Source: Amycolatopsis acidiphila (GTDB lineage: Bacteria > Actinomycetota > Actinomycetes > Mycobacteriales > Pseudonocardiaceae). Taken from it: a stretch of DNA of 64,000 nt. A model generated the notes under the pieces. That model did not search any database and was not told the origin of the DNA. It saw only the letters and a program-made list of their open reading frames with translations. Below, one piece after another: positions 1 through 7,190 of this stretch. Both the position numbers and the translations under genes were made by a program. The stretch lies in contig NZ_CP090063.1 in the NCBI RefSeq assembly GCF_021391495.1, positions 6,944,001 to 7,008,000 on the forward strand. Direction: 5' to 3'. Position 1 is the stretch's first letter. Every line of letters starts with the position of its first letter.

Positions 1-2836
1 ATTTGTTATAGCCATCTAAGGCGTCCACAAGAAGTTTGACACGCTCGTCTGGGCTGTTTGTCAAGAGTGCTCGCAAGTGGTGCGCGAACGAGGTGTTCAG
101 TGCACTATCGTTCTCCTTCAGCGCTTCCTCTGCGGCGCGACGGATGTTCTCAAGTCGAGTAGGTAAGTCGTCAACTTTGGAGAGCCGCTTGGTTTTCGCC
201 TCCAATATCGTCATGGTCAACAACGGCTCGACCGCCCATTTCTCTGCCATAGCGACTTCGATCAAGCCCTTGAAAGCTTCATCGATGCGCCGATCACGTT
301 CCTCTTTTGGAAGTTCCCGAAACATACATATGATTTGCTCGACATAGAATGTAGTTAGAGCCGTATCCGGCACCTCGAGTGACATGGAGTAGTGCCATGA
401 ATCTTCGACCAGCTCCAATGACTTATCTGGAAGATGGACAAAAAGATGCGACGTGTAGGATTCTAGGAAATTTGATCGCTGGTGAGGCGAGACATTGGCT
501 CCTTCACTGAGCGAACGCAACCTGTGGTATGACTTCGACAGCCATGTATAAACGCTCTCAAGGTCGCGTGAATCGTCCACCGAGACGACGTCCAAGGGCA
601 GCATCTTGAGCATCTTCAAGCTGTCCCGAAATATTTCTCCGTAGTAAGGCCGTTCACACCACTGATCGCCAAACGCCTTGGTCATCTTCCCGAGCAGATC
701 GACTGCTGTCCTAAACTCAAGTTGCTCGAATACCTCCTTTTCGCGCCACTCGATCTTGAGAATCTCGAACCCAATTTGGTCCTGCCCTGGGCAATTAGGT
801 GCTGCCGCCGCTGTCTCCAAAAGATGTCGCGCAACCGCCAGCCAACGTGCATTATCATCCGCTTGCGCCCTGAGCTTGTCTGAAAGTAAGGCAATAAAAC
901 TCTCAGCGAAGCGGCACAGGTGGTCGTAGTTGTCACCGGCCACACCAGTTAGAGTGCTTTCCAGTCTATTCATCGGACGGAGCGCGCTTCGTATGCCCTC
1001 GATAGTCCATTTGCGTACTCTATTGGTTGCGTCCTCATTACCCACCGACTCCAGACCGCGCAGTGGCTTGACCATATACATAAGGCCGCTGACAATTTCG
1101 TTAAGCCGGAACCGGTCGGCATAATCGCTGGGGAGTTGATCAAGGACCACGTGCGGTTGGCTTTCTAACAGGACTTGAGCGATTACCTGGTGACGAGCCT
1201 TATGTTCGCGAGCGTGATAGACCCACGGATCGCGATTCGCGCGGTCGATCAGGTTCACGCCGGGCGCGAGAGCCGCGAGCATCGGACTGGTCAACTTGAC
1301 GCCGGTGACGGTCGCTAAGCAAACGTGGCAGTACGCTTGCTTGTCTTCAGCAGTGAGTCGATCAAGCTCCGACCAAACTTTCTGAACCATATCTTGGCCA
1401 TACACTGCCTTAATAAGCTTTACCAGCAAAGGCGAATCTCGGGCTTGCAGACAACTTGCTTGAGCATGCAATCGGAGGTCGATGAAGTCAGCAAGATTAG
1501 GATACTGAGTGGATACATCTTCTTCGCTGAGGCCTTCCTCGATCAAATTATCCCGTGCTCTGGTAATGAGCTTTGCCCAAGAGGTAGCCTCGGTCGCATT
1601 TAACGGCAGTAGATTCACTGACCGTACCCGCAGGTCCGCACGGACCCCGTCATAATCTGACCAGCGTCCATCAAGCACAACAACGGATCGGTCATTACCA
1701 CTGAGGGCGCGCGCGTGCAGCCCAGCACGCAAATGTGAGTCGAGATTCTGTCCGATATACCTGTCAATCGAATAGACAACGATAGGCGTCCAGGTAGTTG
1801 GCTCAATAAGTTCGTCAACCTCTCCCTGAAATTGAGCTAAGCACCCATGATCGTAGGGTTCATAGTAGTTGGACCACCGCAAGAACACATGAGTGGTTTT
1901 CGCCGCAGCGATTAGACTGTTAACGTAGGTACTTTTCCCGTCGCCAGCGTCGCCAGTGACAAAGAACGTCTTGCCGAACCGGCTGTCAAGATGCTCCAGC
2001 AGTTGCAGCGTCGTATACTCGCGACCGTCAAGCTCCACCCGACGGGTAATAATAGCGTCATGTCTAGCATAGGCTGGCGACAACTGGCCGCCGTCGAGCA
2101 CTACATTCCAGTCAATAGGGGTCTTGTCCGTAGTATCAAGATTTGCGTACTCAAGCCGCCATTCGGGGTGAGCCGCTAAGACCGTGCGTACCGCTACCGG
2201 AAGTGGTAGAGCCGGTCGAACTTTGGCTGGCGAATCAATCGTCGATGCATCTCCGATAGTTTGCTCAACCTCTTCCGGCTCCCCCAAAAGCGGAATGTAC
2301 CCAAATTTTTTAGCCTCACTGCGGGCTTCCTGCCAATGGTCTTGCAAGTAATTTGTAAGCAAGTTCGCAACAAGGGGGGCGCATTGATCCCGTCGGTAAG
2401 TCCTTGCGGATTCAACAGATACCAGCGGGGTACCCTTGGCCAATACGGCGATGAAGAGGCGGAACGTTACCGAGTCACGCCTCTTGCGTTCGTCTTCCTC
2501 GCCCAGCCACGATGGCGCCGACGCAGCTAGTGCGGCGTCGATAGCCTCTTCCGGCATGACGGGGAAACCAAGCAGCTCGGCAGCCGCCACGCGAATAGGG
2601 TCGTCGCGGTCGCTCGCTTCGTTCACGACACTTTTGAACAATTGATTCTTCATGAAAATCGTTTTACGTTCCGCGGAGACGCCCTCGCTACTTATATGCA
2701 GGTGCGTTTCGAGCGCTGCCTGCAGCCCTGTAGCACGCTCCATGTTTACTTCTAGCGACTTGTGCGGACCTGGGTAGCCACCCATGACTTTGGCAATGTG
2801 TTCCGAAAGGCTCTCAGACGTCGGCCAACTTGTCAT
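1..2836 (-). CDS. Large STAND/NACHT-like P-loop NTPase, partial (runs off the left edge)
   Basis: A single uninterrupted frame runs from ATG at 2836 to the window edge: 945 codons with no stop, checked triplet by triplet, and an in-frame TGA at 2858-2860 just upstream. GGAGG lies five bases before the ATG, so the start is well supported. Residues 295-303 read GDAGDGKST, a Walker A motif, and VVVLD at 385-389 looks like Walker B. Residues 1-280 contain a HEAT-like stretch around residue 80; after about residue 420 the chain is helical, Leu-rich and repeat-like, with no recognised catalytic domain. This layout fits signalling NTPases of the STAND class, which in bacteria often act in phage defence, but that role is inference. 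The frame contains eight TTA codons and is far less GC-biased than host genes. The C-terminus is missing, so effector and sensor domains may lie outside. Confidence 0.85.
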   Translation of the reverse strand, partial: MTSWPTSESLSEHIAKVMGGYPGPHKSLEVNMERATGLQAALETHLHISSEGVSAERKTIFMKNQLFKSVVNEASDRDDPIRVAAAELLGFPVMPEEAIDAALAASAPSWLGEEDERKRRDSVTFRLFIAVLAKGTPLVSVESARTYRRDQCAPLVANLLTNYLQDHWQEARSEAKKFGYIPLLGEPEEVEQTIGDASTIDSPAKVRPALPLPVAVRTVLAAHPEWRLEYANLDTTDKTPIDWNVVLDGGQLSPAYARHDAIITRRVELDGREYTTLQLLEHLDSRFGKTFFVTGDAGDGKSTYVNSLIAAAKTTHVFLRWSNYYEPYDHGCLAQFQGEVDELIEPTTWTPIVVYSIDRYIGQNLDSHLRAGLHARALSGNDRSVVVLDGRWSDYDGVRADLRVRSVNLLPLNATEATSWAKLITRARDNLIEEGLSEEDVSTQYPNLADFIDLRLHAQASCLQARDSPLLVKLIKAVYGQDMVQKVWSELDRLTAEDKQAYCHVCLATVTGVKLTSPMLAALAPGVNLIDRANRDPWVYHAREHKARHQVIAQVLLESQPHVVLDQLPSDYADRFRLNEIVSGLMYMVKPLRGLESVGNEDATNRVRKWTIEGIRSALRPMNRLESTLTGVAGDNYDHLCRFAESFIALLSDKLRAQADDNARWLAVARHLLETAAAAPNCPGQDQIGFEILKIEWREKEVFEQLEFRTAVDLLGKMTKAFGDQWCERPYYGEIFRDSLKMLKMLPLDVVSVDDSRDLESVYTWLSKSYHRLRSLSEGANVSPHQRSNFLESYTSHLFVHLPDKSLELVEDSWHYSMSLEVPDTALTTFYVEQIICMFRELPKEERDRRIDEAFKGLIEVAMAEKWAVEPLLTMTILEAKTKRLSKVDDLPTRLENIRRAAEEALKENDSALNTSFAHHLRALLTNSPDERVKLLVDALDGYNK

Positions 2837-2890: not shown

Positions 2891-2930
2891 CAATTTGCTA
2901 TTGCAAATAGTGTTACCGTTGTGTTATAAG
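2891..2930 (+). promoter_or_regulatory. Divergent promoter region with palindromic candidate operator
   Basis: The 133-base gap between the divergent genes at 2836 and 2970 is AT-rich. A perfect inverted repeat, ATTTGC-TATT-GCAAAT, occupies 2893-2908. It overlaps a -35-like TTGCAA (2901-2906), which is followed after 18 bases by a -10-like TATAAG (2925-2930) pointing at the 119-aa gene. A regulator binding the palindrome could control both genes, but no binding protein is identified. Confidence 0.45.
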
Positions 2931-2969
2931 TAAAGGCGGGGATCGGCTCTGCAATTGCTGGAGGCCGAT

Positions 2970-3329
2970 ATGTCGTCAATCATAGAGCGCGCCGCAGATC
3001 ATTTCTATATGTTCACCGACTACCGTCGAAGAGGCCACCTCAAACCCCTGTTCACTACCGTTGAAGAGCATATTGCGAACTGGGTTCAGAAAGGTGAGGC
3101 TTGGAAAGACTGCGCCGGTGATGTGCGCATCTACTTCGCCACGGTGGCATTCATCTTTGCTCAGTGGCATGACGACCGCGAGGCAGAAGATCATGCCCAC
3201 GCCGAACTGGCGGGCTGGGAGAGCCCGCTGGATTGGTGCATAAACAAAGCCCTCAAGAATGAACGCACCATTGGGGGTACTGAGATTTTTGACCCCTTTT
3301 TCTTCCAGGCTTCTCGTCCCTGCGACTAG
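2970..3329 (+). CDS. Hypothetical 119-aa protein divergent from the STAND-like gene
   Basis: ATG at 2970 is preceded by GGAGG with five bases of spacing, so this start is chosen over an upstream TTG at 2955. The product is acidic and aromatic-rich (for example HFYMFTDYRRR near the N-terminus and DPFFFQA near the C-terminus), with two Trp-containing helices and no signal peptide, membrane segment or motif that I recognise. It is transcribed divergently from the large NTPase and followed by a good rho-independent terminator. Its base composition is intermediate, like the rest of the element. Position suggests a partner, regulator or immunity factor of the neighbouring NTPase, but that is inference only. 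Confidence 0.7.
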   Translation: MSSIIERAADHFYMFTDYRRRGHLKPLFTTVEEHIANWVQKGEAWKDCAGDVRIYFATVAFIFAQWHDDREAEDHAHAELAGWESPLDWCINKALKNERTIGGTEIFDPFFFQASRPCD

Positions 3330-3541: not shown

Positions 3542-3763
3542 ATGTCTCGTAACCGCTACACCCCAGCCGTGCGACGCTTGGAGCGCGCCCGCATTGCCCG
3601 TCAGGAAGCCGCACTGCGCCACCTCGACCGAGAGCTGCGCGGCGGCCCCGTGTCTCCACACATTTGGCCGGGTGGTAATCCCGTGAAAGAACAGCGCGCT
3701 GCTCGGTTGGAGTCCAAGCAGCTGCACCGTTTGCGGATAGCGGAGAGGAGATCGGTCTCGTAG
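3542..3763 (+). CDS. Small basic hypothetical protein, 73 aa
   Basis: ATG at 3542 follows GGAG with six bases of spacing. The product is short, very basic (rich in Arg) and predicted helical, with the stretch RLERARIARQEAALRHL in the first third. No family is recognised. Small basic proteins of this kind are common in actinomycete integrative elements and plasmids. A strong terminator follows directly after the stop, so it seems to be its own transcription unit. Confidence 0.55.
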   Translation: MSRNRYTPAVRRLERARIARQEAALRHLDRELRGGPVSPHIWPGGNPVKEQRAARLESKQLHRLRIAERRSVS

Positions 3764-3865: not shown

Positions 3866-4168
3866 ATGAATGATCTTATTCATAATGATCGCGAGCTTGT
3901 GCCGTCTGCCGCGATGACCCGTCGGGCGCTCCGTGCCGCCCGGCCGGGGGTTGAGGAGGCGATGGCCAACGGGCTCGTCGCGAGTGCGCAAATAACAGCG
4001 ACGTCCTACGTGGCCGCCGAAGCGGTTCGCCGTACGACTCACCTGGCGAACCTCATGCAGCAGACCGCCGTCGAGCACCCCGAGCTGACGAATATCTACG
4101 CCGCCTACCTGGGCGACTTTACGCTGCTCGCTCGGCAGAGCATCGCCGGAACGGCGGTGTGGGAATGA
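3866..4168 (+). CDS. Hypothetical 100-aa protein, mobile-element associated
   Basis: ATG at 3866 is chosen because GAAGGAGG lies five bases upstream; a longer GTG-initiated form would overlap that ribosome site. The product has no membrane segment and a helical middle (SAQITATSYVAAEAVRRTTHL). I recognise no domain. Its stop TGA overlaps the ATG of the next gene (ATGA at 4165-4168), so the two are translationally coupled. The arrangement of a small soluble protein followed by a short membrane protein resembles the small transfer or accessory genes of actinomycete integrative plasmids. Confidence 0.6.
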   Translation: MNDLIHNDRELVPSAAMTRRALRAARPGVEEAMANGLVASAQITATSYVAAEAVRRTTHLANLMQQTAVEHPELTNIYAAYLGDFTLLARQSIAGTAVWE

Positions 4169-4677
4169 CCTGGCTCTACATCGCGGCCGGCCTGGGGGTC
4201 GTCTTCGTGCTCCTGCTGCTGTTGGCCGGAGCAGCGTATGGCGACTACTGCGTTGACACCCTCAAGACAGCCGGGCAAGCGAGCCATCCCCTTGGCAAAA
4301 ACCCCGGTGACGCCTGGTATCTATCCACCGGCAGTTACCGAGGCGCGCATTTCGCCAGCTTTCCGCTCAGCTTGGTTCGCCGCCCGCTCTTGGCCACGTG
4401 CCCCGCGCAGGTCTGTACCACCTGCGGCACTCCATGGCGACGCGCCCGACAGGTCATCAACGGACGGCCGCTTGCCGTCGGTCCCCTGCGCCCGGCCTGC
4501 CCTCATGACCAGTGGCGACCGGGCAGGGTGCTCGACCCGTTCCTTGGCGCGGGCACCGTCGCTCTGGCGGCCGAAATGCACGGCCGCGGCTGGATAGGGA
4601 TTGAGATCAACTCGACCTACGCCGCACTCGCCGAACAGCGCTTGGCTGCGTGGCGCATGACGGAGCGGGCGCAATGA
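4165..4677 (+). pseudogene. Membrane segment fused to the C-terminal part of a DNA methyltransferase (remnant)
   Basis: Translation starts at ATG 4165, coupled to the preceding stop. Residues 1-28 form a hydrophobic membrane segment (GLGVVFVLLLLLAGAAYGDY). From about residue 45 the sequence switches to the C-terminal half of an N4/N6-adenine DNA methylase: a GDAWYLSTGSYRGAHFA block, a cysteine cluster, and the SAM-binding motif VLDPFLGAGTVALAAE. The N-terminal half that should carry the DPPY/SPPY catalytic motif is absent. Complete enzymes of this type are normally well over 250 aa, against 170 aa here. An internal deletion joining a small membrane-protein gene to a methylase gene explains this best; the product is unlikely to methylate DNA. 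Confidence 0.7.
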
Positions 4678-5248: not shown

Positions 5249-5279
5249 CTGAGAAAATGGATAGAGATAGGAGGGGATG

Positions 5280-7157
5280 ATGGCAGAAAAAGATTTCGAT
5301 CCCGGAACATCTAGCTCAACCGAAGGCTCACAAAACAAGCAGCTCGCCCTTGAGGCTGTTCGCAGTCTTCCAGGTGGCAAGACCGTTAGTCCCAGCTCTA
5401 GGTCCGAACGCGAAGGCGCTATCGGCTTCGCCTATCTGCGGGTTAGCACGCGAGAACAAGCCCGGACCGGCGGTGGCGCGGAGGGGTACTCCATTCCCGC
5501 CCAGCGCGAGGCGTGCCTGGTCAAGGCGCAGCAGATGAGAGTCACTATCCAGGCTGAGTACATTGATGCCGGAGAATCAGCCCGCTCCACTGACCGGGAC
5601 GATCTGCAGCGAATGTTGCGCGACATCAAGAAAGTCCGCCCAGACTACGTGTTCGTTCATAAGATCGACCGCCTTGCCCGCAACCGTGAAGACGACATAG
5701 CCATCAACCTGCTGTTACGTAAGCACGGTGTCAAGCTAATCTCCTGCACCGAGAACATTGATGACACACCGAGCGGAAAACTGTTGTACGGCCTCATGGC
5801 CGAGATCGCCCAGTTCTACTCCGCCAACCTGGCTCAAGAAGTGCTCAAGGGCCTACGCCGGAAGGCTGAGGAGGGCGGGACGCCATTCCGCGCGCCACTC
5901 GGCTACACCAATCGGCGCGAGAAGCGTGGCGGCGTTGAGTTCTCCTGGGTTGAACTGGACCCGGAGCGGGCCAAAATCATCAAGTGGTGTTTCGAGCAGT
6001 ACGCCACGGGCGAGTGGAGCGTGGCCGACCTCGTGCTTGCCGCCCGCAAGAAAGGGCTAACAACCCGCGCGACAGGCACCAAACCCGAATCCGAAGTGGG
6101 TTTGACCACTATGTACAGCGTGTTACGTAATCCATACTACATGGGTTTGGTGCCCTATCAAGGAATTCACTACGAAGGTAAACACCCAACATTAATCGAA
6201 CCCGACGCCTGGCTGGCCGTTCAGCACATCCTTGAGTCCCACAACCACACTGGCGAGAAAGACCGCATCCATACCCACTACCTGCGAAGCACGATCTACT
6301 GCTCGTCCTGCAGCGGACGGCTCGTTTTCTCCGCCAATACTGGCAACGGCGGCACCTACGTCTACTTCATGTGCGTGAAGAAGAAAACCAAGACCAATAA
6401 CTGCCGCCGCCCAGCAGTGCGCGTCGAGAGGATTGAGCAGGGCATCTCAAACTTCTACGGCCGATTCAAGATCAGATCGGAGCACAGCGAGCAGATTTGC
6501 ACAGCCGTCCGCGAGGAGCTTGCAAACCAGCAGGCCGAAGCAAGTCGCGGACTGGACCGCGCTACCCGGCGTAAAGCACGAGCTCTGGACGAGCGCCAGA
6601 AGCTGCTCCAGGCTCACTACGCCGGAGCCGTCCCGCAGGACCTTCTCGCCAGCGAGATGCAACGCCTCACCCGCGCTTTGGTCGAAATTGAAGCCGAGAT
6701 CAAGGCAGCCAAGACCACCGCCACAGATGTCGAAGCCACGCTCAGGCAAGCCCTGGCTGCGGCCCGCCACTGCGAACAGGCTTACCTCACGGCTCCAGAC
6801 CAAATAAAGAGACAAATCAACCAGGGATTTTTCGAGAAGTTGTTCATCGGCGAGGACGGCACTGTCGTACGTGCCGAACTCACAGAGCCGTTTGCCGCTC
6901 TCCTGGAAGAGATGCCGATCGCGCGGCCGTCCGGGTCGTCGGCAGATAACCCGCCATCAGCGCCTCAGACCGATCCTGGCGGGTCCCAGATGGCCGTTGG
7001 CCCACTCGGCCGTCCCGTCTTCCACAACCCCGCCAGGGCGGTTACAGAAAGCGGGAATGACAACACGTTCCGTAGTGTCGTTTCCTTTGCTAGCGGTTTG
7101 AATGATGAGTGCTTGGTGCCCCCGACGGGACTCGAACCCGCACTGAATCGATTTTAA
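5280..7157 (+). CDS. Large serine recombinase (integrase/resolvase family)
   Basis: ATG at 5280 is preferred over 5277 because AGGAGG (5269-5274) then has five-base spacing. The catalytic domain begins after about 45 residues with FAYLRVSTREQ; the nucleophilic serine is about residue 56, and KIDRLARNRED supplies the catalytic arginines. A recombinase domain (TTMYSVLRNPYYMGLVPYQG) follows, then a zinc ribbon (YCSSCSGRL ... MCVKKKTKTNNC) and a coiled-coil segment rich in Arg, Glu and Ala. The length, 625 aa, is normal for large serine integrases. It probably catalyses site-specific integration of the element. The last 14 residues are encoded by the antisense of a tRNA gene and the stop TAA falls in its anticodon loop. 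At least three TTA codons occur. Confidence 0.92.
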   Translation: MAEKDFDPGTSSSTEGSQNKQLALEAVRSLPGGKTVSPSSRSEREGAIGFAYLRVSTREQARTGGGAEGYSIPAQREACLVKAQQMRVTIQAEYIDAGESARSTDRDDLQRMLRDIKKVRPDYVFVHKIDRLARNREDDIAINLLLRKHGVKLISCTENIDDTPSGKLLYGLMAEIAQFYSANLAQEVLKGLRRKAEEGGTPFRAPLGYTNRREKRGGVEFSWVELDPERAKIIKWCFEQYATGEWSVADLVLAARKKGLTTRATGTKPESEVGLTTMYSVLRNPYYMGLVPYQGIHYEGKHPTLIEPDAWLAVQHILESHNHTGEKDRIHTHYLRSTIYCSSCSGRLVFSANTGNGGTYVYFMCVKKKTKTNNCRRPAVRVERIEQGISNFYGRFKIRSEHSEQICTAVREELANQQAEASRGLDRATRRKARALDERQKLLQAHYAGAVPQDLLASEMQRLTRALVEIEAEIKAAKTTATDVEATLRQALAAARHCEQAYLTAPDQIKRQINQGFFEKLFIGEDGTVVRAELTEPFAALLEEMPIARPSGSSADNPPSAPQTDPGGSQMAVGPLGRPVFHNPARAVTESGNDNTFRSVVSFASGLNDECLVPPTGLEPALNRF

Positions 7158-7190
7158 GTCGACTGCCTCTGCCGGTTGGGCTACGGGGGC
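7114..7190 (-). tRNA. tRNA with UAA anticodon and short variable loop (Leu by codon)
   Basis: Reading the minus strand from 7190, a perfect seven-base-pair acceptor stem (GCCCCCG/CGGGGGC) encloses a D arm with the conserved GG, an anticodon stem with loop CTTAAAA (anticodon UAA), a five-base variable loop, and a T arm with loop TTCGAGT. A CCA end is encoded at 7116-7114. Bacterial tRNA-Leu normally has a long class II variable arm; this one is class I, so its charging identity is uncertain. It is the apparent attachment site of the element on its left. Confidence 0.85.

Follow-up and report, generated by a model that had tools for sequence, protein, structure and literature searches.

A head-to-head gene pair on actinobacterial integrative conjugative elements suggests an undescribed switch with exchangeable sensor halves, probably for defence

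What does a giant NTPase gene carried as cargo beside an integrase do for its host? The question is raised by the left edge of a 64,000-nucleotide stretch of the Amycolatopsis acidiphila genome (contig NZ_CP090063.1; G000:C1:6944001-7008000 in our numbering, where G000 is this genome), hereafter the window, in which a minus-strand frame of 945 codons (2..2836) runs open to the edge. A first-pass annotation, made from the sequence alone, had read this frame as a candidate STAND-type immune sensor, possibly with a new type of effector in its first 280 residues. Here we describe the gene, LARGE (protein P0001), as one half of a divergent pair with a small acidic partner gene, SMALL. Such pairs, with very different sensor halves, recur on mobile elements and suggest an undescribed switch, whose function, as far as the sequences tell, is probably defence.

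The open frame is a complete gene, as had been proposed. It starts at an ATG at window position 2836 with GGAGG 5 bases upstream, and extension to the left in the finished genome (a single contig of 8,183,622 bases) placed the stop 152 bases past window base 1, giving a protein of 995 amino acids (L002:15849-18836, minus strand; L002 coordinates are window coordinates plus 16000). The frame is not a chance one because a full-length relative is known at 37-40% identity (P0002, G217). Among the 7997 best candidates scored from 5.8 billion clustered proteins, the only non-self relative was P0002 of Kibdelosporangium aridum (1025 amino acids, 37% identity). Nothing matched in plasmids searched with P0001 and SMALL, in phages searched with P0001, or in IMG/VR searched with the LARGE alignment; GTDB scans gave no match with P0001 and one with the alignment, the G217 contig itself. 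The distribution of P0001 matches was patchy, covering 4 of 390 genomes of the family: its own, G217, which carries the same full-length type, G078, and G113. The homologues are not core genes. The G078 protein (789 amino acids, with weak nSTAND_NTPase5 and TPR matches) shares the NTPase and C-terminus of LARGE without the N-terminal region, and the G113 protein (460 amino acids) shares only about residues 1-176; the N-terminal region and the NTPase/C-terminal part are therefore separable. Neither element genes nor SMALL were found at the G078 locus.

The Walker A P-loop GDAGDGKST starts at residue 295, mid-protein, after about 290 unrecognised residues, and its invariant G, K, and T are kept in a three-sequence alignment. 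In Pfam, LARGE stayed below the curated STAND, NACHT, and AAA cut-offs, with AAA_16 at residues 269-337 scoring 24.6 bits against a cut-off of 32.6, NACHT 13 bits against 26.7, and two weaker matches than AAA_16 in all; its relatives in G155, G243, and G383 exceed the NACHT cut-off. The Walker B region, read by eye, is VVYSID in P0001, LVYEIN in P0002, and VVLAEL in the G078 protein, with no conserved acidic pair apparent. Because no curated cut-off was passed and Walker B appears non-canonical, we call LARGE a STAND-like rather than a STAND NTPase, a label drawn from its sequence. NCBIfam and PHROG scans of LARGE gave no match, PADLOC 2.0 gave none at E < 0.01 (top, SspF, E 0.025, 11 bits, residues 277-311), and residues 1-290 matched nothing in Pfam, NCBIfam, PADLOC, PHROGs, or the PDB. 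No housekeeping ATPase turned up, and no known nuclease, TIR, or SIR2 family was matched (Pfam, NCBIfam, PADLOC, PHROG), in agreement with the first-pass annotation. An AlphaFold model from a two-sequence alignment had a mean predicted local distance difference test score (pLDDT) of 46.8; residues 1-420 were not reliably modelled, and from residue 640 onward the C-terminus consisted of helices with pLDDT of about 50-90. Foldseek matched this C-terminus mostly to TPR or similar helical-repeat proteins, with template-modelling scores of 0.06-0.18 over the query, one of them a STAND-TPR protein at E 2.7e-3. The P-loop followed by a long helical C-terminus supports the STAND-like layout proposed at the outset.

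Head to head with LARGE stands SMALL (Table 1), and a SMALL relative occupies the same position in G113 and G217. A three-sequence SMALL profile was positive in 7 of the 390 family genomes, every time head to head with a large gene. A wider profile, run on 397 genomes taken from across the order, found SMALL in four: the window's own, its family member G227, and G393 and G482, which belong to two further families; in the last three the gene is also head to head with a large one. With a profile of the N-terminal region of LARGE, 12 of the 390 family genomes were picked up: eight known carriers, one new carrier, G243, in which SMALL was then located where expected (E 1e-19), and G204, G205, and G267 (E 5.5e-4 to 9.4e-4), which were counted as chance matches and dropped. 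The G204 and G267 stretches were examined and hold no SMALL gene. A third route, the coupling protein of the host element, brought the twelfth pair, G383, among 17 sites retrieved, where gene lists were whole for 16 and partial for L082 and two profile searches covered all 17. SMALL is head to head with a LARGE-type gene in all 12 loci found (G000, G217, G113, G163, G155, G212, G243, G383, G384, G393, G482, and G227), which span three families of one order, the window's own among them; carriers named in protein records belong to Amycolatopsis, Kibdelosporangium, and Umezawaea (Pseudonocardiaceae). No hydropathy window exceeds 1.6 in 11 of the 12 SMALL proteins, and a marginal one reaches 1.70 in G113. 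The AlphaFold model of SMALL (mean pLDDT 65.6) had no Foldseek match with E < 1, and neither SMALL nor the N-terminal region of LARGE matched anything in Pfam, NCBIfam, PHROG, PADLOC, or PDB searches.

Which parts of the pair are constant and which are exchanged? Leave-one-out profiles, whose E-values were measured against a small set of open reading frames (ORFs) and supersede leave-in values inflated for the eight carriers in the profile, recovered SMALL in all 12 loci (E up to 9.4e-8), making it one family, and the N-terminal region of LARGE, about 190 residues, in seven (E up to 4.8e-7). The C-termini are alike in only 4 of 66 locus pairs, G000 with G217 and G155, G243, and G383 with one another. 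Their types are a STAND-like NTPase with helices (G000 and G217), NACHT with two to five predicted membrane spans (G155, G243, and G383), NB-ARC with a long C-terminus (G393), and one or three predicted spans with an outer part (G212, G163, G384, G482, and G227); the C-terminal part in G113 is without spans and was assigned no type. STAND, NACHT, or NB-ARC matches lie above or near the cut-off in four LARGE proteins. Distances between SMALL proteins correlated with those between N-terminal regions (rho 0.46, p 0.001; rho 0.85 in the seven firm loci) and not with those between coupling proteins (rho 0.18, p 0.13, 11 loci) or C-termini (rho -0.22), with the proviso that 12 loci are few and that N-termini which align poorly make the distances noisier. 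This pattern indicates that SMALL and the N-terminal region travel together from one element backbone to another, with exchange of the sensor half. The G + C content at third codon positions was 0.47-0.65 in LARGE genes versus 0.69-0.82 in coupling protein genes (nine loci compared).

The region between the two genes holds the palindrome ATTTGCTATTGCAAAT, a candidate operator, whose core TTTGCTATTGCAAA recurs with at most one mismatch in the intergenic regions of five loci (G000, G217, G113, G163, and G155); in G163 a perfect palindrome of 26 bases is built around it. At the same tolerance, a scan of 30 stretches found it confined to those five intergenic regions. In the five whole genomes it occurred at six places, of which five are the SMALL promoter and the sixth (G217:C3) has neither LARGE nor SMALL, and a reversed control pattern occurred zero times. 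When the 12 intergenic regions were shuffled 1000 times, TTTGCTATTGCAAA turned up in a single one of the resulting sets. In the five loci the palindrome overlaps an inferred promoter of SMALL (TTGCAA, a spacing of 17-18 bases, and a TATAAG-like box), which was not among the matches of a consensus promoter scan. Since the palindrome occurs about once per genome, the regulator that would bind it is probably encoded in the module or the element, and self-regulation is likely. Further downstream, a short leader hairpin can pair with the ribosome site of SMALL in 10 of the 12 loci. Its folding z-scores were -3.19, -2.06, -0.86, -3.12, -0.39, -2.75, -0.81, -2.79, -1.95, and -2.64. For G113 and G384 the hairpin appears in the centroid only, the fold of minimum energy being a different one. 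When the arms were aligned by hand, 87.5% of cells were paired, a value reached by 17 of 500 shuffles. Two-sided changes occur in four of eight pairs, and the covariation score was reached by 8 of 500 shuffles. Palindrome and hairpin were first spotted by eye and then tested on those very sequences, and support for the leader is moderate because its structure was derived from the sequences on which it was tested.

We tentatively read LARGE/SMALL as a sensor/output module that is carried by the elements, regulates itself, and most likely serves defence. The C-terminal part of LARGE would be the exchangeable sensor, here a STAND-like NTPase with putative helical repeats expected to recognise something intracellular; the NACHT and NB-ARC forms, like the STAND form, would see an intracellular cue and the membrane forms an extracellular one. 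The helical N-terminal region would be an adaptor that works with SMALL, presumably by contact, as a receptor with its adaptor is the easiest reading of a swappable sensor joined to a constant region whose distances follow those of SMALL. Because this region precedes other sensor types and a separate SMALL gene is present in all 12 loci, we prefer an adaptor to the new effector first suggested for residues 1-280, which now appears less likely. SMALL would be the constant output, kept scarce by two locks, the module-private palindrome over its promoter and the leader hairpin at its ribosome site; the easiest reading of a small acidic protein controlled in this way is a dose-sensitive output. 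Once the sensor fires, SMALL would be released or made and would act, and the most likely outcome is that the host or the element is protected from phages or rival elements.

The same two locks on a small acidic protein, one of them a private palindrome, would also suit an addiction or kil/kor-like pair, in which unrestrained SMALL harms the cell, LARGE restrains it, loss of the element is punished, and the sensor halves are secondary. The survival of an intact pair in a decayed element (see below) fits this too. We nevertheless consider it improbable, as it would be unusual for an antitoxin to have 370-1044 amino acids and interchangeable STAND, NACHT, or receptor halves, and Pfam shows neither a toxin motif nor a known toxin-antitoxin family.

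The setting of the pair bears on its purpose. Element genes were searched in stretches of 11.5-26 kb at the 12 pair loci, with queries from G217, G163, G212, and the window. A TraG/D-type coupling protein gene was found in 11 loci, a Replic_Relax relaxase in 8, an N6/N4 DNA methyltransferase in 7 (a fragment in the window), and a serine integrase in 7. Judged by these genes, the pair is hosted by a family of actinobacterial integrative conjugative elements, and the cargo position beside an integrase noted in the first-pass annotation held (phrog_95, 283.6 bits). The window's own element, in which neither relaxase nor coupling protein was found in the 26 kb searched, looks like a decayed copy incapable of its own transfer, with the pair intact. 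No second copy of the tRNA end at which it lies was found in 43 kb to the left or elsewhere in the genome (at most two mismatches).

The place of SMALL in these elements makes transfer control a serious rival. LARGE would sense a cue, inside the cell in the STAND, NACHT, and NB-ARC forms and at the surface in the membrane forms, and through SMALL, an activator or anti-activator that is the first of the transfer-direction genes, would control excision or conjugation of the element. SMALL is indeed codirectional with and upstream of the coupling protein gene in 10 of the 11 loci that have one, LARGE diverges from that direction, the pair sits at a fixed element site, and the membrane-receptor forms suit outside cues. 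Moreover, in four further elements (G147, G215, G239, and G060) this site is taken by another large-plus-small unit, class B. Several facts speak against transfer control, however: the orientation in G212 is opposite, the window's element retains the pair without transfer genes, and none of the palindrome sites in the five genomes searched is at a transfer gene. Nor was the leader found elsewhere, since a leader-like text pattern, sensitive enough to find 8 of the 10 known leaders, gave nine matches at 16 other element sites, none judged to be such a leader. On balance we regard a transfer switch as rather unlikely.

Defence or conflict between elements is ranked first for two reasons. STAND and NACHT proteins with layouts like these have known or predicted immune roles elsewhere (Kaur et al., 2020, PMC7159879; Kaur et al., 2021, PMC8195603), and known anti-phage families are found on the elements themselves. 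Gabija lies beside the G482 pair (GajA 670 bits, GajB 290 bits), a dCTP deaminase beside the G113 pair (432 bits in PADLOC; NCBIfam 357 against a cut-off of 400), and ThsA beside the G155 pair (306 bits); the G217 element has a weaker AriAB-type match (112 bits), and a TrlF/Ppl relative is found next to the window. Of the immune-sensor proposal made at first, the layout and the mobile setting are supported, to which a patchy distribution can be added; the N-terminal effector is unsupported, and defence is still what we infer.

Weighing against the defence module are the following points. SMALL has no recognised toxin motif or fold in Pfam and structure searches, and ten LARGE and class-B proteins compared with PADLOC gave P-loop-level matches and no whole-model match. 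The N-terminal homology is marginal in G155, G393, and G227 (E 0.004-0.016), and G384 and G482 were not recovered. The palindrome is absent from 7 of the 12 intergenic regions (four or more mismatches), the leader hairpin is missing in G393 and G227, and shuffled sequences fold almost as well as 3 of the 10 hairpins. The defence neighbours were picked by eye without a background rate, from seven plus seven proteins, two of one seven being unmatched.

A bolder form of the module reading, possible but on the doubtful side, is a plug-in sensor platform of mobile elements, in which one double-locked small output and a constant adaptor would serve freely swapped STAND, NACHT, NB-ARC, and membrane-receptor sensors. 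Because SMALL sits at the head of the transfer-direction genes, one cue could join immunity and conjugation, protecting the host and triggering escape of the element.

STAND/NACHT immune sensors include those named Avs and bNACHT. LARGE resembles such sensors in its central P-loop NTPase, its helical or other C-terminal sensor, and its patchy and mobile occurrence; unlike them, it has no PADLOC match beyond the P-loop and no N-terminal effector domain match, and a separate small protein seems to provide the output. Of the systems described, the EACC1/EACC2 two-gene conflict system, common in actinobacteria, comes nearest; it has a caspase or cyclase at a constant N-terminus, a membrane-spanning EACC1 partner, and a 5'/3' gene order (PMC7159879, PMC8195603). 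Both combine a constant component with a second protein of constant N-terminus and highly variable C-terminus (STAND NTPases, membrane and outer domains). In contrast to that system, no caspase or cyclase Pfam match was found in P0001 or the other large proteins scanned, SMALL lacks a membrane span in 11 of 12 loci (the marginal window in G113 aside), and the two genes are head to head at a fixed site on conjugative elements. Actinomycete integrative and conjugative elements (AICEs), among which the kil-kor control of pSAM2 is described, share with the present elements the tRNA linkage, serine or tyrosine integrases, NsdA-like regulators, and NB-ARC cargo, and the available portion of that account describes no head-to-head large/small sensor pair (Ghinet et al., 2011, PMC3218068). 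The present elements differ from AICEs as portrayed there in their TraG/D-type coupling protein and their Replic_Relax relaxase. A literature search of titles and abstract openings, with most subscription journals outside its coverage, found no description of the LARGE/SMALL pair.

The left neighbours of LARGE raise one more explanation. AmcB, a cyclophane maturase encoded on the strand of LARGE, starts 63 bases beyond the end of that gene and is followed by AmcA, so that LARGE might be an accessory protein of AmcAB cyclophane-peptide making. We rejected this as very improbable, for AmcB is beside one of the 12 pairs and absent from the other 11 stretches and G078, and P0001 matches no NCBIfam model. 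The AmcA precursor scores 59.8 bits against a cut-off of 40 and has a repeated DNRP/WDN core; a convergent pentapeptide-repeat gene lies near the AmcAB genes (L002:13773-14432).

A coupling protein of at least 42% identity occurs at 23 places, of which seven hold a LARGE/SMALL pair (six already known and G383). In class B, the N-termini of the large proteins are 34-38% identical to the first one, sub-threshold NTPase matches occur in three of four, and a related partner of 179-200 amino acids is encoded on the same strand in three of four. A single family joining class A, the LARGE/SMALL pairs, and class B was unsupported (hhalign probability 0.3%). Between the slot and the coupling protein gene, a three-gene run (about 270-300, 360-385, and 235-245 amino acids) is conserved in several elements; its L019 copies matched no Pfam or NCBIfam model.

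Table 1. Positions of the pair, its control region, and surrounding features (window coordinates unless an L number is given)
Feature	Position	Strand	Remarks
LARGE	1..2836 (945 codons); last 152 bases left of window	-	residues 1-~190 adaptor-like, P-loop 295-303, STAND-like NTPase, helical C-terminus
Palindrome, candidate operator	2893..2908	.	core at 2894-2907
Inferred promoter towards SMALL	2901..2930	+	TTGCAA 2901-2906, TATAAG-like 2925-2930; from cross-locus conservation
Leader hairpin of SMALL	2942..2969	+	includes GGAGG of SMALL
SMALL	2970..3329	+	divergent partner gene, 119 amino acids, acidic, predicted helical; ORF listing begins at TTG 2955
MPRNRY-type small backbone ORF	3542..3763	+	47% identity to G217 copy
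N6/N4 DNA methyltransferase remnant	4159..4677	+	172 amino acids versus 344-345 in G217 and G113
Backbone ORF, 134 amino acids	4724..5128	+	59% identity to G217 copy
Large serine integrase	5277..7157	+	overlaps into tRNA-Leu
tRNA-Leu(TAA)	7114-7190	-	at integrase end of element
AmcB radical-SAM cyclophane maturase	L002:14429-15785	-	left of window; 438 bits, cut-off 425
TrlF-family ATPase, relative of anti-phage protein Ppl	L002:237-3053	-	beside window; 521 bits, cut-off 350
Anti-phage genes beside three pairs	L027:1-2437, L009:17827-19419, L021:383-1246		Gabija, dCTP-deaminase, ThsA-type
Class-B units	L077:3339-7206, L078:5161-7809, L081:4250-6406, L079:4891-6813
Three-gene run	L019:10817-13538, L042:9801-12408, L080:2206-4849, L081:6928-9505

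The LARGE/SMALL pair would add a two-protein sensor module to the few described cases in which a constant partner is combined with an exchangeable sensor, and its private palindrome and natural sensor swaps make it testable. At least one unrelated large-plus-small unit, class B, to which the matches assign no function, is already present at the same element site. The pair thereby marks one fixed site in a family of actinobacterial elements where further such units can be sought.

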